The translations under genes were made by a program, and so were the position numbers. Shown here one piece after another: positions 12,694-51,124 of a stretch of DNA of 64,000 bases (position 1 is the stretch's first letter; the number at the start of each line of letters is the position of its first letter). Source of the stretch: Bacteroidota bacterium (GTDB lineage Bacteria; Bacteroidota; Bacteroidia; JACCXN01); contig JACCXN010000091.1 in the NCBI GenBank assembly GCA_013696965.1, positions 62,001 through 126,000 on the forward strand, given 5' to 3'. A model generated the notes under the pieces. That model saw nothing but the letters and a program-made list of their open reading frames with translations. It made no database searches and was not told where the DNA came from.

Positions 12694-13950
12694 ATGAATT
12701 TATTAATAAAAAACATTAAAGCACTTCTTCAAACAGAAACAATATTTCGCGAAAAAATTTGCGGAAAGGATATGTCTGTATTAAACAAAATAGAAGATGC
12801 CTGGATTTATATAGAAGAAGATACGATTATAGGATTTGGAGAAATGAAAAATTGCCCTGATTCATACAATGAACAGGCCAATATTAAAATAATTGATGCC
12901 ACAGGAAAGATTGTATTGCCATGCTGGTGTGATTCTCATACTCATATAGTATATGCAGGAAGCCGGGAAAGGGAATTTGTGGATAGAATTAATGGATTGT
13001 CGTATGAAGAAATTGCAAAAAAAGGGGGTGGAATTTTAAACTCCGCTAAAAGATTACAGCAAACCTCAGAAGAGGATTTGTTAAAACAGGCTCTTGAAAG
13101 AACCAATGAAATAATGATGATGGGAACAGGAGCAGTAGAAATTAAAAGTGGTTATGGCCTTACTGTTCAGGATGAAATAAAAATGCTCCGAGTAATAAAA
13201 AAACTTAAAACAATTTCTCCTCTTGAAATTAAATCAACATTTCTTGGGGCACATGCCATGCCGGTTGAATATAAAAATAATCGTTCGGAATACATCAGGC
13301 AAATTACGGATGAAATGCTCCCTTTAATAGCCGAGGAAAAGCTTGCAGATTATTGCGATGTGTTTTGTGACAGGGGATTTTTTACTCCTGAAGAAACTGA
13401 AATTATTTTAAAGGCAGGCTGGAAATATGGGCTACAGCCAAAAATACATGCCAATGAACTTGATTATTCTGGAGGTATACAGGTGGGAGTCAATAATAAA
13501 GCATTATCCGTGGATCATTTGGAATTTACGGGTGATGCTGAAATCTTTGCATTGAAAGACACCGTAACCATGCCTACATTACTTCCATCAACTGCATTCT
13601 TCCTTGGTCTTCATTATCCACCTGCCCGAAAAATGATTGATGCAGGCCTTCCAGTTGCCTTAGCATCAGATTACAACCCTGGATCATCCCCTTCAGGAAA
13701 AATGAGTTTCATTTTATCCCTTGCTTGTATTAAAATGAAAATGACTCCTGAAGAAGCAATTAATGCTGCCACATTAAATTCTGCTTATGCAATGGGAATA
13801 AATAAAGAATACGGGAGTATTGCAATAGGAAAAAAAGCAAATTTAATAATTACTAGTAAAATTTCCTCCTATGTATATATACCCTATGCTTTCGGAGCAA
13901 ACCATATTGAAACAGTTATAATTAAAGGAGAAATAATGAGCAAAAATTAA
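12694..13950 (+). CDS. hutI: Imidazolonepropionase
   Basis: The 418-residue amidohydrolase has the metal-binding DSHTHIVYAGSREREF motif near residue 78, IHANELDYSGG near residue 250 and ASDYNPGSSPSG near residue 325. These match HutI, which opens the imidazolone ring to give N-formimino-L-glutamate in histidine degradation. Other hut genes are not adjacent, so the pathway is presumably scattered. The gene is free-standing, divergent from aroC and followed by the first PA-domain gene. Confidence 0.95.
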   Translation: MNLLIKNIKALLQTETIFREKICGKDMSVLNKIEDAWIYIEEDTIIGFGEMKNCPDSYNEQANIKIIDATGKIVLPCWCDSHTHIVYAGSREREFVDRINGLSYEEIAKKGGGILNSAKRLQQTSEEDLLKQALERTNEIMMMGTGAVEIKSGYGLTVQDEIKMLRVIKKLKTISPLEIKSTFLGAHAMPVEYKNNRSEYIRQITDEMLPLIAEEKLADYCDVFCDRGFFTPEETEIILKAGWKYGLQPKIHANELDYSGGIQVGVNNKALSVDHLEFTGDAEIFALKDTVTMPTLLPSTAFFLGLHYPPARKMIDAGLPVALASDYNPGSSPSGKMSFILSLACIKMKMTPEEAINAATLNSAYAMGINKEYGSIAIGKKANLIITSKISSYVYIPYAFGANHIETVIIKGEIMSKN

Positions 13951-13960
13951 AAAACAATGT

Positions 13961-13990
13961 GCTTTTTACATTAGCTTTTTTAACTTTGTA
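13961..13990 (+). promoter_or_regulatory. Promoter block shared by the two PA-domain genes, copy 1
   Basis: TAACTTTG at 13981-13988 fits the -7 consensus exactly. The 30 bp block is closely repeated at 16079-16109 before the paralogue, including the GCTTT and AGCTTTT words, so promoter and gene were duplicated together. Confidence 0.55.
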
Positions 13991-14026
13991 TCTATTAAAT
14001 TAAATTATTCACTTAAACCATATGAA

Positions 14027-15754
14027 ATGAAAAGAAAAATACTTTTAATATTAAGTCTTTTTGCAGGGATTATGATAAATAATCATGCAAATGCACAAAT
14101 TGTTTTTTTAGTAGAAACACCTTCCAGTGTTGCAGGAAGTTATGGCTTTACTTATTCATCTGATAACAATTGGGGCGCTGATATAAATACATCGGCAGTT
14201 TCTGCTCCTGTTGTAGTAATAAATGATTCTTTAGCCTGCACACCTGCAGTTAATCCTACGGCAATTAATGGTAATATAGCCATGGTTTACCGTGGTAGTT
14301 GTATGTTTAGCCTTAAAGCCTACCATGCACAACAAGCAGGTGCAGTAGCAGTTATAATTGTAAACAACAAACCCGGCGAGGGCCTTTTTGGCATGTTGGC
14401 CGGTGATTCTGCATCAGCAGTAACAATTCCTGTTATTCTTATAAGTTATGAAGATGGCGCATTTTTAAGATCTGCTATTGATGCAGGAACCCTAAATGCA
14501 TTTATTGGAAATAAATCAGGACTATATCCTAGCGACATGGGTTTTTATAATGGGGATATAGTAGTAGCATCCGGTGCCGCAATTCCGCAAGTATTAGCAT
14601 CAGATAGTAATTCTTTCTCAATCCCTGTTGGGGCTTGGGTAACAAATTTTGGTTCTGACAATCAAACAAATGCTACTTTAAACGCTGAAATAAAACATGA
14701 AAATGTTTCTATTTATTCTCAGAGCATGAGCGTAACGCTACTTTCCGGAGCAGATATTTTTGTAGCTCTACCTAAATTCGCACAAGCAAGTTATCCTATT
14801 GGAAGTTATACTTTAACTTATACAATTTCTCCAACAGTTGCCGATGGTTATCCAGCCGACAACCAAATCATTACTTATTTTCAAATAACGGAATCTAAAT
14901 ATTCTAAAGTAAGACTTGATCCAAATACTTTATTACCAATTAAAACAGGTTCTACCAGAGCTGCTGGTGCTTATGCTGAATTTACCTGGTGTTCATCAAT
15001 GAAAGTTAAGAATGCAGGCAATGCTAAAGTTCATGGATTTTCATTTAGCGCAACTCGCGAGAATAGCTCTTTAGCAGATAAAACTGTTTTATGCAAAATG
15101 TATGAATGGAACAATAAAAACCTTTCTAATTTTGATTCTATTTCCGAAGTAGGTAGTAAACTGTATGATTATTTAGGAAACTATCAGGATTCCGTTGTTT
15201 CTGCTTATTTTGAAAACAACCAGGAAGAACTTGAACCTATTACTCTTAAATCCAACCAATTGTATTTAGCTTGTATCACTGTATTTGATGATTCTATTAA
15301 TTTGGGATATAGTTCCTCAATTGATTATTTGTCTAATACAGTTCTTCATGATGATGCTTTTAGTCCTGTTGCAATAAAAGAACTTCCGGGTCAAGCAAAT
15401 CCTACATGGTATAATTCTGGGTTTGGAACTGAAATGGCTCCTGGATTAACTATTGAGTTTGGCCCTAGCACTGTTGGAATTAAGGAAAACAAAATTTCGA
15501 CTTTTGAACAAATGCCTTACCCTAACCCAACCAATAATTACATCAGTATTCCTTTAAAGGGAGATTATGCAGGCATGGTTGAACTTTTGGTAATTGATAT
15601 TACAGGTAAAATCGTGAAATCAGAAAGGATCAACATTTCAAATTCTACTATTTTAAACGTAAATACTTCAGATATTAATAGTGGAACTTATTTCTTCCAG
15701 GTAAAAAGTGAGAATAAAAAAACACTTTCTTTTCCTGTTGTTATTGCTAAATAG
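14027..15754 (+). CDS. PA-domain protein with type IX secretion C-terminal sorting domain (copy 1)
   Basis: A 575-residue secreted protein. Residues 1-24 are a Sec signal peptide (ending NHANAQ). Residues about 40-165 form a protease-associated (PA) domain: YRGSCMFSLKAYHAQQAGAVAVIIVNN, partly quoted as AQQAGAVAVIIVNN, followed by VTIPVILISYEDGAFLRSAI. The middle has extracellular beta-sandwich character with no protease catalytic motif that I can find. Residues about 500-575 are a type A T9SS sorting domain (MPYPNPTNNYISIPL, VIDITGKIVKSE, GTYFFQVKSENKK). It would cross the outer membrane by the Por/T9SS system and be released or anchored at the surface. It is about two-thirds identical by eye to the 16148 gene. 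Function is unknown. Confidence 0.88.
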   Translation: MKRKILLILSLFAGIMINNHANAQIVFLVETPSSVAGSYGFTYSSDNNWGADINTSAVSAPVVVINDSLACTPAVNPTAINGNIAMVYRGSCMFSLKAYHAQQAGAVAVIIVNNKPGEGLFGMLAGDSASAVTIPVILISYEDGAFLRSAIDAGTLNAFIGNKSGLYPSDMGFYNGDIVVASGAAIPQVLASDSNSFSIPVGAWVTNFGSDNQTNATLNAEIKHENVSIYSQSMSVTLLSGADIFVALPKFAQASYPIGSYTLTYTISPTVADGYPADNQIITYFQITESKYSKVRLDPNTLLPIKTGSTRAAGAYAEFTWCSSMKVKNAGNAKVHGFSFSATRENSSLADKTVLCKMYEWNNKNLSNFDSISEVGSKLYDYLGNYQDSVVSAYFENNQEELEPITLKSNQLYLACITVFDDSINLGYSSSIDYLSNTVLHDDAFSPVAIKELPGQANPTWYNSGFGTEMAPGLTIEFGPSTVGIKENKISTFEQMPYPNPTNNYISIPLKGDYAGMVELLVIDITGKIVKSERINISNSTILNVNTSDINSGTYFFQVKSENKKTLSFPVVIAK

Positions 15755-15772
15755 TTTATATTTATTTAATAA

Positions 15773-16009
15773 AAAAGAGGCTGCCCAAAAGGGAGGCCAC
15801 TGAAAAAGCTAACCCCAAGGGCTGACAGGATTACAGAAAATAACAACAATTAAAACCAAAACCCCGAAGGGGTGTTATAAAAATAAACAATCAATAATTT
15901 CACACCTCCGGGGTTGAACTGGAATTAAAAATATTAATCTATAATTGTATCATCCCTTCGGGATTAGCTTTTTCAGTGGCTCCCCAAAAGGGTAGCATCT
16001 TTTGTTTTT
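15773..16009 (+). terminator. Intrinsic terminator of PA-domain gene 1, split by an insertion
   Basis: The left half AGAGGCTGCCC (15776-15786) and the right half GGGTAGCATCT (15990-16000) pair with one mismatch and one G-U wobble, and a T-rich tract follows. The loop would have been AAAA as in the other terminators here, but a 189-bp element now lies between the halves. Confidence 0.65.
15794..15982. mobile_element. MITE-like element with 17-bp terminal inverted repeats
   Basis: GCCACTGAAAAAGCTAA at 15796-15812 is repeated exactly as its reverse complement at 15964-15980, and imperfect similarity continues inwards to about 40 bp. The element is flanked by CCCAAAAGGG at 15784-15793 and again at 15983-15992, which reads as a 10-bp target duplication. 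The interior holds smaller GC-rich hairpins (CCCCGAAGGGG; CACACCTCCGGGG). There is no ORF, so it would need a transposase supplied in trans. Confidence 0.65.
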
Positions 16010-16078
16010 TTAAACCCTTTAAAACAACTATTAGTAAAGAAAATTAAAAAAATTTGCAAAAAAAAAGTAAAACATAAT

Positions 16079-16109
16079 GCTTTATTAATAAGCTTTTCCT
16101 AACTTTGTA
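16079..16109 (+). promoter_or_regulatory. Promoter block shared by the two PA-domain genes, copy 2
   Basis: TAACTTTG at 16100-16107 fits the -7 consensus. The block matches the one at 13961-13990 with a one-base length difference. It lies about 40 bp before the ATG at 16148. Confidence 0.55.
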
Positions 16110-16147
16110 AGAATAAATAAATTATCAATTAACTAAAAATTTACAAA

Positions 16148-17911
16148 ATGAAAAGAAAAATACTTTTACTATTTGGTTTTTTTACAGCCCTGGCTATTAA
16201 CAACCAGGCAAATGCACAAGTTGTTTTTAATGTAAAAACACCACTAAGCATGGAAGGTAATTACGATTTTACTTATTCATCATCATCTGCAACGGGTACT
16301 TGGGGCGCTGATTTGTCTACAGTGGCTATTACAGATACTCTTGTAATAATAAGAGACAATGCTGTTGGAGATTCCCTTGGTTGTACTGCTGCGATTAATT
16401 CTGCACAAATTGCAGGACAATTTGCAGTTGTTTACCGTGGTTCATGCCAATTTGGAAAAAAAGCGCTTGAAGCTCAAAATGCAGGCGCTACTGCAGTAAT
16501 AATTATAAACAATGTAGCAGGTGGAGCAGTTGGAATGGCTGGTGGAGATTTTGGAAGCCAGGTAACAATTCCAGTTGTTATGATAAGTGCTGAGGACGGT
16601 GCATTATTTAGATCTGCAATTGATGCAGGAACAATGACTGCCTTTATTGGTTCTAAGGCAGGCCTTTTTGTAACTGATCTTGGATTTGATAAATCTGATA
16701 TCATCGTTGCATCAGGTGCAGCTATTCCTAAAGTTTTAGCCCAAAACGGAAGTGACTTTAATATCCCTGTTGGACTTTATGTTTATAACTATGGTTCTGC
16801 GAACCAAACTAATGTAACTGTTAGTGCTCAAATTATGCTAAGTACATCATCAGTTTATTCTCAAAGCACTACCATTAATCTTGCAAGCGGTGCAGATGCA
16901 TTTGTTGCTCTTCCTACTTTTTCCTTACCAAGTTATAGTGTAGGTGAATATACAATGACATATTCAATTACTCCTAGTGTTGCGGATGAAGATCCTTCTG
17001 ATAATTCAGTTGTAAGCAAATTCAGAATTACTGATTCTCAGTATTCCAAAGTAATGCTTAAACCAGATCCAAACAACGATGCGAATATGCTGCCAATTAC
17101 AACAGGTTCTACAAGTGCAGGAGGAGTTTACGAAGAATTTTACTGGTGTACTGCAATGAAGGTAAACAATGCAAATGGTGCACAAGTTCACGGATTTTCT
17201 TTTAGCACAAGAAATAATTTTAGAGATTTGACAGGATCATCAGTAAGATCTGAATTATACAAATGGAATAACATAAGTCCTTCAGGATTTGATTCACTTG
17301 TTCAAATAGGATCAATTTTATATGATTATGAGTCTGATTTACAAGATACTCTTGTCTATTCTTATTTCTTAGATTCTAATGAAGAGCTGCAACCAATTGC
17401 ACTTGAAAATAACCAGTTGTATTTAGCTTGTGTTGTTGTATTTGAAGATTCAACAAACATTGGATATAGCAATGCTATTAACCACAACGCAAGTACTGAA
17501 AAGTACAGAGATGCGTATAATCCTGTTGGGATTAAAGATTTATCAACTCAAGCAAGCGTTACATGGTATACAGGATTTTCTGGTGGTAATTCATCCCCAG
17601 CTATAACTATCCAGTTTGGCCCTAGTACAGTAGGTGTTGAAGAAAACAAAATTTCTACAATAGAGCACATGCCTTACCCAAATCCTGCCAATAATTACAT
17701 CAGCATTCCTTTAAAAGGAAATCATGCAGGCATGGTTGAACTTAAGGTAATTGATGTAACAGGTAAAATTGTGAAGTCTGAAACCATCAACGTTTCAAAT
17801 TCAAATGTTTTAACTGTAAGTACTTCTGATATTGAAAATGGTATCTATTTCTTCCAATTAAAAAGTGGAGATAACAAAGCAACTTCATTCTCTGTAGTGA
17901 TTGCTAAATAA
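16148..17911 (+). CDS. PA-domain protein with type IX secretion C-terminal sorting domain (copy 2)
   Basis: A 587-residue paralogue of the 14027 gene with the same layout: signal peptide 1-24 (MKRKILLLFGFF...NNQANAQ), PA domain about 40-175 (VVYRGSCQFGKKALEAQNAG, VTIPVVMISAEDGALFRSAI), a central region with YSKVMLKPDPNN and a WCTAMKVNNANG segment shared with copy 1, and a T9SS type A domain at about 512-587 (MPYPNPANNYISIPL, GIYFFQLKSGDNK). The sorting domains are nearly identical between copies whereas the PA domains have diverged more. It carries an insertion of a few residues near residue 40. No enzyme motif was found. A strong terminator follows. Confidence 0.88.
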   Translation: MKRKILLLFGFFTALAINNQANAQVVFNVKTPLSMEGNYDFTYSSSSATGTWGADLSTVAITDTLVIIRDNAVGDSLGCTAAINSAQIAGQFAVVYRGSCQFGKKALEAQNAGATAVIIINNVAGGAVGMAGGDFGSQVTIPVVMISAEDGALFRSAIDAGTMTAFIGSKAGLFVTDLGFDKSDIIVASGAAIPKVLAQNGSDFNIPVGLYVYNYGSANQTNVTVSAQIMLSTSSVYSQSTTINLASGADAFVALPTFSLPSYSVGEYTMTYSITPSVADEDPSDNSVVSKFRITDSQYSKVMLKPDPNNDANMLPITTGSTSAGGVYEEFYWCTAMKVNNANGAQVHGFSFSTRNNFRDLTGSSVRSELYKWNNISPSGFDSLVQIGSILYDYESDLQDTLVYSYFLDSNEELQPIALENNQLYLACVVVFEDSTNIGYSNAINHNASTEKYRDAYNPVGIKDLSTQASVTWYTGFSGGNSSPAITIQFGPSTVGVEENKISTIEHMPYPNPANNYISIPLKGNHAGMVELKVIDVTGKIVKSETINVSNSNVLTVSTSDIENGIYFFQLKSGDNKATSFSVVIAK

Positions 17912-17927
17912 TTTAATATTTTCTTTT

Positions 17928-17968
17928 CATAAAAAAAGGCTGTTCCAAAAGGACAGCCTTTTTTTATG
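17928..17968 (+). terminator. Intrinsic terminator of PA-domain gene 2
   Basis: CATAAAAAAAGGCTGT(T)CC, loop AAAA, GGACAGCCTTTTTTTATG: a long stem with one bulge followed by a T run. The distal ATG of this hairpin is also the first three bases of a repeat unit (see 17966-18137). Confidence 0.9.
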
Positions 17969-18137
17969 AAATAGCCATGCACGAACCGTTCACAAACGCT
18001 AATGAATATAGCATCGGGATGGCCTTAAAAAAACAAATTATATACATATGAAATAGCCATGCACTAACCATGCACTAACACTTATAAATATAACATGGAG
18101 TCCAAATAAATCGGGATGACATTTAAAAGACAAATGC
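17966..18137 (+). repeat. ATGAAATAG repeat family, locus A (two tandem units)
   Basis: Unit 1 starts at 17966 and unit 2 at 18048, each opening with ATGAAATAGCCATGCAC. Unit 1 ends AAACAAATTATATACAT directly before unit 2. Unit 2 has the CATGCACTAACC duplication and a half-degenerate ATCGGGATGAC palindrome, and fades out near 18137 without a gene following. The first unit begins exactly at the base of the terminator stem of the gene before it. Confidence 0.85.
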
Positions 18138-18254
18138 TTTAGCATTCATGATTTCCTTAGAGGAATAATTAAAAAACAATTAATTATCTGCATTAAAATA
18201 GCAATTCATAAAACATTAAAAAAACAGCGAGTTGGTCAGTTTTTTTTGATCATA

Positions 18255-18434
18255 AAGTTCAGGAAATCTCTGCGGCTCTCTGTTACTTCTCCGTGTAACT
18301 CCATGAAATAATAGGGTCCTGCAATCTGTGCAGACACTGCTTTTTTATTTTACAGAGGGGACCGGAATAAATCCTAAAAGTTTAGGGAATCTCTGTGGCC
18401 CTCTGTGACTTCTCCGTGCAACTCTGTGAAATAA
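18255..18434 (+). repeat. Imperfect direct repeat pair rich in CTCTGTG words
   Basis: Segments 18255-18311 and 18377-18434 align at roughly 80 percent by eye, sharing AATCTCTG, GGC.CTCTGT, ACTTCTCCGTG and AACTC...GAAATAA. There is no ORF. Together with the flanking DNA (18138-18254 and 18435-18540) this fills a 629-bp gap that otherwise holds nothing I can name. Confidence 0.6.
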
Positions 18435-18540
18435 AAGAAACTATGCCATCTCTAATATGAAGCTCAGCGTAATGAGGAATCAATATCGGGGTGCAGAAGT
18501 GTCATTTATATTCGAACTCAGGTTATTACAAAACTTATAG

Positions 18541-28085: not shown

Positions 28086-28283
28086 ATGAAATAGCCATGC
28101 ACAAACCATGCACAAACGCTAATGAAGATAACCTGGCTATCCCGATAAATCGGGATGACAGTTAAAAACAAATTATATACATATGAAATAGCCATGCACA
28201 AACCATTCACAAACAGCAATGAATATAACCTGGCTATCCCGATAAATCGGGATGACAGTTAAAAAACAAATTATATACATATG
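28086..28283 (+). repeat. ATGAAATAG repeat family, locus B (two tandem units ending on a start codon)
   Basis: Units begin at 28086 and 28183 (97 and 98 bp) and the second ends at the ATG of the 28281 gene. Each reads ATGAAATAGCC, two copies of ATGCACAAAC-like words (the second unit has ATTCACAAAC), TAATGAA, CCTGGCT, the palindrome ATCCCGATAAATCGGGAT, then TTAAAAACAAATTATATAC. The two units are about 93 percent identical by eye. Confidence 0.9.
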
Positions 28284-28751
28284 AAAAATATTATTCGCTT
28301 CGCATTAATTTCTACTGCTTTTTTTTCTCCTTTTACTGTAAATACTGGATTTTCTCAGTGTAAATCAAAGGAAATCGTAAAATCATCAAAAACCAAACTT
28401 CAGCCCTATAAATATTCTGGTGCTGCTGTTAATGATTTTATTATTGATGATAAATCAAAAATGATTGATATTGAATTTACAGTTTACGAAGGACAGGAAT
28501 ACAGACTTGTTTTTTGTCCTTCGTTAAATCTCACTCAAGACATTAAAATCAGTATTTACGATAAAAGAAAAAACTTTAAATCACGAAAACTTATTTTTGA
28601 AACATCATCAAAAAGTGAAAATCCTCTTTTCTTTGATCCCCCAAAATCCGGTAACTACTATATTGAATATACAATACCTGCTAATGAAAATCCAGAAACA
28701 AAAAGTGAAGGTTGTATGGTACTGATGATTGGTTATCAAACAAAGAAATAA
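28281..28751 (+). CDS. Small secreted protein of unknown function, repeat-led
   Basis: A 156-residue protein with a signal peptide at residues 1-25 (ending NTGFSQ). The mature part is a probable beta-sandwich: MIDIEFTVYEGQEYRLVFCPS, given in part (FTVYEGQEYRLVFCPS), then DIKISIYDKRKNFKSRK and PPKSGNYYIEYTIPANENP, which resembles the PPC-type domains of secreted bacterial proteins. Two Cys near residues 27 and 146 could form a disulfide. The start codon is the last element of a 98-bp repeat unit. No enzyme motif was recognised. Confidence 0.75.
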   Translation: MKNIIRFALISTAFFSPFTVNTGFSQCKSKEIVKSSKTKLQPYKYSGAAVNDFIIDDKSKMIDIEFTVYEGQEYRLVFCPSLNLTQDIKISIYDKRKNFKSRKLIFETSSKSENPLFFDPPKSGNYYIEYTIPANENPETKSEGCMVLMIGYQTKK

Positions 28752-44339: not shown

Positions 44340-44501
44340 ATGAAATGCCATTTTACTTATGAATAACATGGTTATACTCTTTGACTATTAAAAGACGAAT
44401 TATACACATATGAAATAGCCATGCACGAACCGTTCACAAACGCTAATGAATATAACCTGGCTTTACCATATGACAATTAAAAAACAAATTATATACATAT
44501 G
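44340..44501 (+). repeat. ATGAAATAG repeat family, locus C (one degenerate and one full unit)
   Basis: A degenerate 70-bp unit starts at 44340 (ATGAAATGCCAT...GACTATTAAAAGACGAATTATACACAT), followed by an 89-bp unit from 44410 that lacks the GC palindrome. The second ends AAACAAATTATATACAT exactly at the ATG (44499) of the lipoprotein gene. Confidence 0.85.
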
Positions 44502-45233
44502 AAATATTGGTTCAAGATTTTAATTATCATGCCACTTTTGGTCCTATTTTTTTATAGTTGCAAAAAGGATGCAGGAGAAGGTGGAGGAGCTAGCATTTCG
44601 GGAAAACTGTTCAGTAAAAATTTTCATTCTCCTGAAGCTCCTTATACTGAAGATGACATTGAAGCAGACAAGAAAATTTACATAACTTATGGAGATGAAA
44701 AAATACCTGATGATGATACTCGGACAGGGATTGATGGTAGTTTTAAATTTTCATATTTAAGAAAAGGCACATACAACATTTTTACATATTCCCTTAATCC
44801 GGCATCCGCTTCTGATGATAGTGAAATACCGGTTATACAAACGGTAGAAATAACAAAAAACAATCAGCAGATAACACTTGATGATCTTGTTATTTATGAA
44901 AAGGCCGATAACAATGGCAGTTCTACCATAAGAGGAAGAGTGTTTGTGAAAAAATACATCTCATCCTTTACTTTTGTTGTTGATTCCTTTTATGTTGCAG
45001 ATGAAGATGTATTTGCCGTGTATGGCAGAGAATTTGGAATTAGCAAAAGGATAAGAACCTCACATGATGGTTCATTTGAATTTTCTAACCTTAGAAAAGG
45101 CACCTATAGTATTTACGTTCTTTCAAAAGATAAGGAAATGCAAACCTCAACAAATATCCCTGTTCTAAAAGAAGTTAAAATAACCGCAAACAACCAGGTA
45201 GTGGTTATGCCAGATATAGTTATAGCTAAATAA
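44499..45233 (+). CDS. Lipoprotein with two tandem CarboxypepD_reg-like domains
   Basis: A 244-residue protein with a lipobox ending at Cys21 (FFYSC). Two similar beta-sandwich repeats follow: residues about 31-120 and about 135-243. Matching pieces are ISGKLFSKN / IRGRVFVKK, DGSFKFSYLRKGTYNIFTYS / DGSFEFSNLRKGTYSIYVLS, and EIPVIQTVEITKNNQQITLDDLVI / NIPVLKEVKITANNQVVVMPDIVI (quoted in part). This is an internal duplication of a carboxypeptidase-regulatory/SdrD_B-like fold, usually structural. It starts the 44.5-47.3 kb unit and lies 2 bp before the next gene. Confidence 0.82.
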   Translation: MKYWFKILIIMPLLVLFFYSCKKDAGEGGGASISGKLFSKNFHSPEAPYTEDDIEADKKIYITYGDEKIPDDDTRTGIDGSFKFSYLRKGTYNIFTYSLNPASASDDSEIPVIQTVEITKNNQQITLDDLVIYEKADNNGSSTIRGRVFVKKYISSFTFVVDSFYVADEDVFAVYGREFGISKRIRTSHDGSFEFSNLRKGTYSIYVLSKDKEMQTSTNIPVLKEVKITANNQVVVMPDIVIAK

Positions 45234-46548: not shown

Positions 46549-47345
46549 ACCGTAACAATCTGCTATTTCTACTAATTATTCTCATTGCATTTATTTCTCC
46601 CTCCTCTGTTTTTTGCAGCAGTCATAATTATTCAGGCATTTCACCTAATGCTAATTTATTGGCTCAGAACAATGCTATGGATGAATTTGAAGAAGATTTA
46701 ACTGAGGAGGATAACAAAAGCAAGAAAAAAAAGAAAGACAAGGACAAAGACAAGGACAAAGACAAGGATAAGGCCAAGGAGGATGTAAGCCTGAACATGG
46801 ACTTCTTTTTGAGTCTTTTAATAAATATTATAACAGTTATTCTTATCATTCGTTTTATTTATTATCCAAATTATAAGAACCAGGACTCCCTTTTTACTTT
46901 TTTCCTTTTCAACATTATCGTATTCGTTCTTATGTATCTTCTTAACCAGATAAAAATATCTCTTGGAGCTGCCTTTGGATTGTTTGCAGTTTTTTCAATG
47001 CTTAGGTATAGAACAGAAAATATTACTGCAAAAGAAATGACCTACCTGTTTATAGTAATAGCTGTAGGACTTATTTCTGCTGTAAGGCTTGATACAATGG
47101 AATTAATAATGATAAACAGTGTTATTATTCTTATTACTTATGCCCTTGATGGCAACATATTGTTTAAAAGGGAATATTCAAAATTAGTTCAATATGAAAA
47201 TATTGAATTAATAAAGCCTGAACGTCATTTAGAACTCATTGAGGATTTAAAAAACAGAACAGGATTAAAAATCCGCAGAATAGATATAATTAAAATGGAT
47301 TTTTTAAGAGATACGGCTTCAATAAAAGTGTATTACCACAATTAA
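46545..47345 (+). CDS. DUF4956 membrane protein with Lys-Asp repeat tract
   Basis: A 266-residue protein: signal peptide or first helix 1-24 (ending SSVFCSS), an acidic then charged linker with the repeat KKKKKDKDKDKDKDKDK at about 59-76, and a membrane domain (about 85-200) with four helices and the DUF4956 core GAAFGLFAVFSMLRYRTENI. A C-terminal cytoplasmic alpha/beta domain (205-266, IKPERHLELIEDLKNRTGLKIRRI, in part LKNRTGLKIRRIDI) follows. It overlaps the VTC gene by 4 bp. The pairing suggests a membrane partner for a polyphosphate enzyme; the mechanism is unknown. Confidence 0.85.
   Translation: MNRNNLLFLLIILIAFISPSSVFCSSHNYSGISPNANLLAQNNAMDEFEEDLTEEDNKSKKKKKDKDKDKDKDKDKAKEDVSLNMDFFLSLLINIITVILIIRFIYYPNYKNQDSLFTFFLFNIIVFVLMYLLNQIKISLGAAFGLFAVFSMLRYRTENITAKEMTYLFIVIAVGLISAVRLDTMELIMINSVIILITYALDGNILFKREYSKLVQYENIELIKPERHLELIEDLKNRTGLKIRRIDIIKMDFLRDTASIKVYYHN
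46733..46776 (+). repeat. In-frame hexanucleotide repeat in the DUF4956 gene
   Basis: Alternating GACAAG and GACAAA hexamers, about six units, encode the Lys-Asp tract. Gain or loss of a unit keeps the frame. Confidence 0.85.
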
Positions 47346-49596: not shown

Positions 49597-49696
49597 GTGA
49601 AATAGCCATGCACCAAACGTGCGCAAACACTAATGAATATAACATGGCGTCCCGATAAATCGGGATGACCTTTTAAAAACAAATTATCTACATATG
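49597..49696 (+). repeat. ATGAAATAG repeat family, locus D (one unit)
   Basis: A single 97-bp unit opens with GTGAAATAGCCATGCACC, contains TAATGAATATAACATGG and the palindrome TCCCGATAAATCGGGA, and ends AAAACAAATTATCTACAT exactly at the ATG (49694) of the Tim44-like gene. Confidence 0.88.
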
Positions 49697-51124
49697 AAAA
49701 AAACGGTTCAACTTTTAATCCTTCTGATGTTTCTATTTTCATGCGCTACTTCGCTTTATGCAAGGGCTGGTGGCGGTGGTGGAGGTGACAGCAGTTCAGG
49801 TTCATCTTCTTCAGGGTCCTCCTCCTCTTCATATTCCTCTTCATCGAGCAGTAATTCATCAGGCAATACCGTTGATGCCCCACCTTGGGTTGTAAAAGGG
49901 GTAATTGGTTTTGTTTCATGCTTTGTAATATTCATTCTATTTAATGTTATCAGAGAACTTATTTATTCAAAACGAAAACCTGGGCAATCCCCATCAAAGC
50001 GAAAAGATAACAACCAAGCTGTTTTTGACAATGTCTTTTTATCTGCAAATCCTGGCTTTGACAAAACCGTTTTTAAAACCAAAGTAAAAACTGCTTTTAT
50101 GGCAATCCAAAAGGCATGGGAGGAGCAAGACCTTTCCTTGGTGAGAAACTGGATAAGTGATGGTGTATACCAGCGTTTTTGTTTACAGTTTGATATGATG
50201 AAACATTTGGGACAGAAAAATATACTTTCCAATATTTCCATTACTAAAATTCATTTTATTAAAGCTTCCCTGGAGAGCAGTTATAGTATTATAACAGTGG
50301 CCATTTACTTTAAAATGGATGACCGTTTTATTTCAGAAAAACTACCTGAACTCACTAAAAACTACACAGGGGAAGCGGCTATGGAATACTGGACTTTTGT
50401 TAAAAAATCAGGCGCTGTCCTTAATGACCTTTACTCCAGTAGTTCTTGCCCAAATTGTGGAGATGAATTAAGCAAAACAGGTGGTCAGATTAGCAAATGC
50501 CCATCCTGCTCAACAGTTACATATCTTGGGGATTATGATTGGGTTTTATCAGAAATAACACAGGAAGCTGATTATTCAGAAGATACTTCCCTTTGCATAG
50601 AGGATGAAAAACTAGAAACCCTTAGAACCGAAGAAGAATTTTGTATACAAAACATGGAGGATAAAGCCTCCAATGCATTTGTTCATTACTTGTTTGCATC
50701 TGCCTGGAATAAAACCCTGCATTTTAAACGGTTTGCAACAGATGAGGTTATTTCTAAAATTGAAAAAGAAAAGGATGAGCCATACATATTCAATCGAATG
50801 TACATTAACCGGGTTACATGTTCCAATTATAATTGCACAGAAGACACTCATAATCTCATCTTTGTTATTGTTTATTCTGCCCAAAAAGTAATGCATAAGG
50901 ATAACAAAATAAAAAAATTAAATCGTGATGTGGAGTCGTTTCGAACTGCTATTACGCTGAGTCGAAAAATTGGAAAGGCCTCTTCCAAAAGCAAATTATG
51001 GAGTCATGAATGTTCAAATTGCGGTTCTCCATATGGAGATTCAATTAACTCCCAATGCGATTACTGCAAGGAAAAAATAAATTCCACAAAACATGATTGG
51101 ATAGTCACTGGAATTTTAGATTGA
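49694..51124 (+). CDS. Tim44-like domain membrane protein with two zinc ribbons
   Basis: A 476-residue protein. A signal sequence (1-24) is followed by a Gly/Ser-rich linker (25-58), a transmembrane helix (about 66-86, VIGFVSCFVIFILFNVI) and a Tim44-like domain (about 105-235, FKTKVKTAFMAIQKAWEEQD). Zinc ribbon 1 (CPNCGDELSKTGGQISKCPSC) starts near 252; here quoted as CPNC...CPSC. A second Tim44/NTF2-like domain (about 300-430) is followed by ribbon 2 (CSNCGSPYGDSINSQCDYC) near 439. Bacterial Tim44-like proteins have no settled function. The start codon is the end of a repeat unit. Confidence 0.83.
   Translation: MKKTVQLLILLMFLFSCATSLYARAGGGGGGDSSSGSSSSGSSSSSYSSSSSSNSSGNTVDAPPWVVKGVIGFVSCFVIFILFNVIRELIYSKRKPGQSPSKRKDNNQAVFDNVFLSANPGFDKTVFKTKVKTAFMAIQKAWEEQDLSLVRNWISDGVYQRFCLQFDMMKHLGQKNILSNISITKIHFIKASLESSYSIITVAIYFKMDDRFISEKLPELTKNYTGEAAMEYWTFVKKSGAVLNDLYSSSSCPNCGDELSKTGGQISKCPSCSTVTYLGDYDWVLSEITQEADYSEDTSLCIEDEKLETLRTEEEFCIQNMEDKASNAFVHYLFASAWNKTLHFKRFATDEVISKIEKEKDEPYIFNRMYINRVTCSNYNCTEDTHNLIFVIVYSAQKVMHKDNKIKKLNRDVESFRTAITLSRKIGKASSKSKLWSHECSNCGSPYGDSINSQCDYCKEKINSTKHDWIVTGILD

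Follow-up and report, generated by a model that had tools for sequence, protein, structure and literature searches.

Mobile elements usually damage or avoid the start sites of genes. Among the described systems closest to the repeat reported here, IS200/IS605 elements are characterized by the pairing of a guide with the cleavage site (background section of PMC6006769). Quentin et al. 2018 (PMC6006769) describe Bacteroidetes TnpA genes of subclass 2.6 flanked by genome-repeated 'atypical secondary structures', and TAACTGA direct repeats have been reported from some Bacteroidetes, in tandem near the start codons of genes unrelated in function (PMC4679880). The unit presented here sits on the start codons of genes with housekeeping roles, such as those for phosphoglycerate kinase, Phe-tRNA synthetase and NADH dehydrogenase, where it appears to survive by bringing its own translation start.

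Units of the window and their distribution in Bacteroidia

The window, by which we mean the whole 64-kb stretch of DNA that was analysed, contains seven units at four loci, six of them clear and one degraded, all on the + strand and spanning ATGAAATAG to ACAAATTATNTACAT (Table 1). Inside the window the copies were detected with BLAST E-values of 1e-17 to 1e-43, and the sequence-only profile used here, which is partly built from the window copies themselves, recovers exactly these units (E 3e-7 to 6e-26). Both searches confirmed the original observation of a repeat family at four loci, far beyond chance. The bare 9-mer ATGAAATAG was not enriched at one mismatch (44 found against 38.5 expected), so the evidence for the unit is the unit as a whole. 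The base after the unit, reported to be the A of a gene's ATG at three loci, is indeed so at 28281, 44499 and 49694. The first copy at 44340 proved to be a degraded unit, and the array at 17966 ends in an extended variant with no gene.

Table 1. Repeat units and adjoining genes in the 64-kb window
Feature	Position	Strand	Remarks
Shortened unit, first of tandem pair	17966..18047	+	Directly 3' of the T-run of a terminator-like hairpin
Extended-variant unit, second of pair	18048..18200	+	AAATGCTTTAGCATT and TTCCTTAGAGGAA palindromes, then degraded right end; no gene start after
Unit, 97 bp, first of tandem pair	28086..28182	+	Begins with target core ATGAA
Long-variant unit, 98 bp	28183..28280	+	Hairpin CCCGATAAATCGGG at 28238-28251; last base adjoins start codon
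Gene 3' of 28183 unit	28281..28751	+	Start ATGAAA; signal-peptide-like N-terminus; no Pfam match
Degraded unit, right half	44363..44409	+	Of the 44340 copy, the profile recognises 44363-44414 alone
Short-variant unit	44410..44498	+	Internal hexamer CATATG (44467-44472) complementary to CATATG over start codon (44496-44501)
Gene 3' of 44410 unit	44499..45233	+	Lipoprotein-like; carboxypeptidase-regulatory-like domain
Long-variant unit	49597..49693	+	Opens GTGAAATAG
Gene 3' of 49597 unit	49694..51124	+	Tim44-like domain

Other repetition was also observed in the window. The adjacent genes of about 580 aa at 14027-15754 and 16148-17911 are tandem duplicates (13938-17911, DNA blocks about 72-80% identical), the second carrying a PA domain and a Por secretion C-terminal sorting domain. 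An intergenic repeat at 18254-18437 (AAAGTTCAGGAAATCTCTGCGGCTCTCTGTTACTTCTCCGTGTAACTCC, two 61-bp copies, 85% identical) is unrelated to the unit, and a 12-bp tandem repeat (AAAGACAAGGAC) lies at 46734-46780 within a gene, where it encodes a Lys/Asp-rich stretch.

A BLAST search of the 3.86-Mb draft source genome with one unit gave at least 90 matches. They are distributed over at least some 42 loci, each with a run of between one and six, and a number of contigs stop inside unit arrays. Contig pairs L033/L047 and L034/L058 each share one array flank and differ in the other, through assembly breaks in the repeat or through recombination between arrays. Dozens of more diverged units with identical edges were found in the MAG nzgw115 (JAHEXY01), from a different family within the class. 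A class-wide search profile, built purely from the sequences of source-genome and nzgw115 units, detected the unit in 60 of 395 sampled Bacteroidia genomes (29 of 197 genera), usually with end-to-end matches, and every positive from a phylum-wide genome draw belongs to class Bacteroidia. The unit of about 95 bp typically runs from ATGAAAT to ...ACATATGAA and usually ends on a start codon; at 28 loci in other genomes it usually extends from ATGAAAT to ATGAA, mostly at a real gene start, and further copies agree. One copy (L171) has the left end only, with the right end absent and no obvious cargo. Matches to a 17-base pattern outside nzgw115 and UWPOB_BACT3 look like chance, the profile having confirmed none of them. 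Searches of phages, plasmids and viral contigs gave no match to the unit, nor did a literature search with its sequence strings; Rfam 15 had no match in the window and, in six relatives, none near a unit at gathering score.

Insertion boundaries, downstream genes and empty sites

In all arrays with flanks listed, the right edge is constant, TACAT being followed directly by ATGAA, and the left flank before ATGAAATAG is variable. Of the source-genome arrays with a readable right flank, about two thirds stop precisely at the start codon that opens a reading frame; the remaining arrays end at ATGAA motifs without an obvious gene or have decayed ends. For comparison, 18 of the 68 non-coding ATGAA sites in the window (26%) are gene starts. 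The five bases on the gene side are nearly always ATGAA, against only 15 of the 49 other gene starts of the window, and the sixth base can be A, T or C. At position -1 the left flank carries T at 47 of 55 loci from two genomes, against 16 of 49 native starts. At pgk, at pheS and at a site within a coding sequence (L295), the unit lies between two copies of ATGAA.

The genes downstream of the units are not related to one another and often have housekeeping roles (thiC, maf, purT, pgk, pheS, nuoA). Their products include ThiC, Maf, PurT, arginase, an M61 peptidase, a cyclopropane synthase and an FAA hydrolase in the source genome; NuoA, a universal stress protein, a response regulator and RidA in nzgw115; RimK in UWPOB_BACT3; and, from N-terminal sequences read by eye, Pgk, PheS, GcvT and RidA among those of other genomes. 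Several of these proteins have Pfam domains that start at residue 1-7 (e.g. Maf, RimK, Usp and M61), which argues that the starts adjoining the units are native. The statement that the genes all encode exported or membrane proteins is true of the three window genes and fails in the rest of the genome, where ThiC, Maf, PurT and others lie downstream; the exported pattern is a small-sample effect. A shared regulatory leader, the other reading first offered, is not supported in the sense of a regulon, the downstream genes having no common function.

Comparison among relatives provided filled and empty versions of the same sites. In one genus the pgk start is filled in G302, G415, G402 and G401 and empty in G363 and G399 (protein 95% identical), the leader TTAGTTTAAATTTAT... 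of the empty sites running directly into ATGAAAAC and being kept upstream in the filled ones. A second genus has the pheS start filled in G219 but empty in G313 (93%), the two sharing the upstream sequence CTTCGCGCCATTAATTT; here too the native leader is retained upstream. In the source genome, the unit at L295 splits a Y1-transposase-like gene between AATAA and ATGAA, with the frame resuming past the second ATGAA, and of two neighbouring paralogous small genes at L061 one has a plain leader and the other three units. From the empty sites and the copy within a coding sequence we conclude that the unit is an insertion whose target is ATGAA in DNA, a start codon not being strictly required. Its presence and absence at the identical start codon in close relatives show that the unit is mobile; the pgk and pheS differences could in principle be losses instead of gains. 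With filled and empty orthologous sites at hand, the original idea of a mobile 5' leader inserting at ATGAAA was essentially right, its core being ATGAA and the sixth base variable.

The Y1_Tnp loci scanned yielded no transposase for the unit and no autonomous copy of it: the 36 loci around Y1_Tnp matches held one unit insertion and weak fragments, with no unit ends flanking. Y1_Tnp was found in 24 of 27 unit-bearing genomes and had no match in three; it is also present in most unit-free genomes, and its co-occurrence is therefore uninformative. Linkage to a RAYT was rejected, as the Y1_Tnp genes examined had no flanking units, and G250 and L295 hold units inside such genes. The diverged units of G250 (L302, G250:C8, 1154-1219 and 3872-3924) lie in reverse orientation within Y1-transposase-like genes. 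Their right end is CAGAAGAA, matched by the internal hexamer (CTTCTG in one copy), a possible case of guide and end having changed together.

The internal hexamer and the folding of the unit

The internal hexamer is fully complementary to the hexamer over the start codon in 37 of 52 units, against a mean of 14 and a maximum of 25 in 10,000 shuffles, a result that is strong but carries no formal probability, 13 of the hexamers having been anchored by hand and the sequences being related. When each genus and type is counted once, 23 are complementary versus 7 after shuffling (maximum 16). The complementary units fall into seven pair types, among them CATATG/CATATG, CATGTG/CACATG, CATCTG/CAGATG, CATACG/CGTATG and CACGTG/CACGTG. 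If the TTC in front of the hexamer is included, the internal strand is TTC-C-AT, which can pair with ATGAA if one base bulges out. The covariation suggests that the hexamer guides the unit to its target in the manner of IS200/IS605 elements. The long variant, common in the source genome, has a CCCGAT..ATCGGG hairpin in place of the guide hexamer, yet it is present at many independent sites, which argues that the pairing can sometimes be dispensed with.

When distant members are included, the two arms of the left stem are seen to covary in several genomes (TAGCCATG/CATGGC-G-TA, TAACCATG/CATGGTTA, TATCCATG/CATGGATA and TCCCCA/TGGGGA); a scripted test of this stem was weakly supportive, owing to the bulge. 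The stems of the inner hairpin are longer than in shuffled sequence (2.6 vs 1.2), and a subterminal structure of left stem-loop and inner hairpin is plausible, with the right end pairing through its own terminus. RNAalifold returned no consensus structure for the two-genome alignment. Terminal inverted repeats are absent from the ends, read directly as ATAGCCATG... and ...TACATATGAA. The Met-Lys-stop frame said to begin each unit is not conserved, relatives having ATGAAATCC, ATGAAATAT and ATGAAATTT, and we reject it as a functional mini-ORF on account of this variation; its TAG appears to belong to a stem, the opposite arm of which varies along with it in several genomes. At L210, at L219 and in the long units of G000 and nzgw115, differing G+C-rich palindromes occur at about one internal position, after GGCGTAT, as if this spot accepts other palindromic repeats across genera.

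Proposed mechanism, rival explanations and known systems

We consider it likely that the unit is a small non-autonomous mobile element of Bacteroidia, inserted at ATGAA by guide pairing, served in trans by an HUH (Y1) enzyme and maintained at start codons by survivorship. The internal guide TTC-C-AT would pair with ATGAA and place the insertion beside (T)ATGAA, the element being moved as a single strand by an HUH (Y1) transposase acting in trans. The right end would regenerate ATGAA, so that later units could insert next to earlier ones and give rise to tandem arrays. This end resembles an A-rich translation-initiation region (TTAAAAAACAAATTATNTACATATGAA), so that a gene hit at its start codon would still be translated, from the leader of the element, with the native leader shifted about 95 bp upstream. 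Insertions elsewhere would be lost or decay, and those at start codons would become the working leader of the gene. The enrichment at start codons probably arises because the unit brings its own initiation region, and active targeting of start codons may be the alternative to such survivorship. More tentatively, and with confidence somewhat short of even, we propose that the unit represents an undescribed class of Bacteroidia mobile DNA that finds ATGAA by means of a base-paired guide of its own and installs a ready-made initiation region at the starts of essential genes, changing their expression.

The hexamer covariation takes in the start codon, the units lie in the 5' UTR in the same orientation as the gene, and orthologous pgk copies drift but retain their stems, all of which would be expected of a conserved cis-regulatory RNA leader (riboswitch-like or protein-bound) in which the internal hexamer sequesters the start codon under a common regulator. 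We regard such a leader as unlikely, given downstream genes without a common function, presence that varies among close relatives, long variants that lack the pairing, copies at non-gene sites and within a coding sequence, and the lack of an Rfam family. Site-specific recombination of small circles at a TATGAA core by a tyrosine or serine recombinase would give both insertion and tandem arrays, and it agrees with the identical ATGAA core at both edges, the single core per junction in tandem arrays and the lack of terminal inverted repeats; a core of 5-6 bp with no visible flanking recombinase arms, no recombinase noticed in linkage with the unit, and a guide covariation that it does not by itself explain, render it quite unlikely. 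Homologous recombination or gene conversion among leaders, or slippage between ATGAA motifs, would require no transposition enzyme and could draw on tandem units with ATGAA microhomology and on the several contigs that end in arrays, two pairs of which have one flank in common. However, 5 bp of homology would hardly seed loci as unrelated as pgk, pheS and the site within a coding sequence, and we hold this explanation to be very improbable.

Established classes of repeat were compared as well. Integron attC sites were rejected, the unit occurring many times in tandem with no gene between and lying 5' of genes that are ordinary chromosomal loci. A classical MITE (DDE) does not fit a unit without terminal inverted repeats, though copies of ATGAA lie on both sides, and REP/REPIN does not fit a consensus with no GT[AG]G foot at the unit ends or the stem base.

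If it does survive by bringing its own translation start, the unit would allow translation to be rewired across the genome in a major class of bacteria; on the more tentative proposal it would act as a natural 'leader replacement' system altering the expression of any gene hit. The units would also amount to a natural collection of Bacteroidia leaders that can stand in for one another, and would allow a test of whether a guide selects its target by base pairing.

Like IS200/IS605 elements and their non-autonomous derivatives, the unit has internal structure and no terminal inverted repeats, and insertion takes place beside a short fixed target resembling the element's own end. It differs from them in that no tnpA was found for it, its putative guide pairs with the start-codon site and one of its ends is a putative translation start. 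REP/REPIN sequences, thought to be dispersed in trans by the Y1 transposase TnpA-REP (RAYT), resemble the unit in being high-copy, structured and present in Bacteroidetes, whereas the unit has no GTAG foot, measures about 95 nt and lies at start codons. The subclass-2.6-like genes examined are flanked by other repeats and not by the unit; a distant relative of the unit may be among the 'atypical secondary structures' of that subclass. TAACTGA repeats are heptamers several nucleotides upstream of the start, in contrast to a structured unit of about 95 bp with exact ends at ATGAA. Of the known kinds, IS200/IS605 derivatives and REP/TnpA-REP systems come closest, and the unit is best filed as non-autonomous structured mobile DNA.
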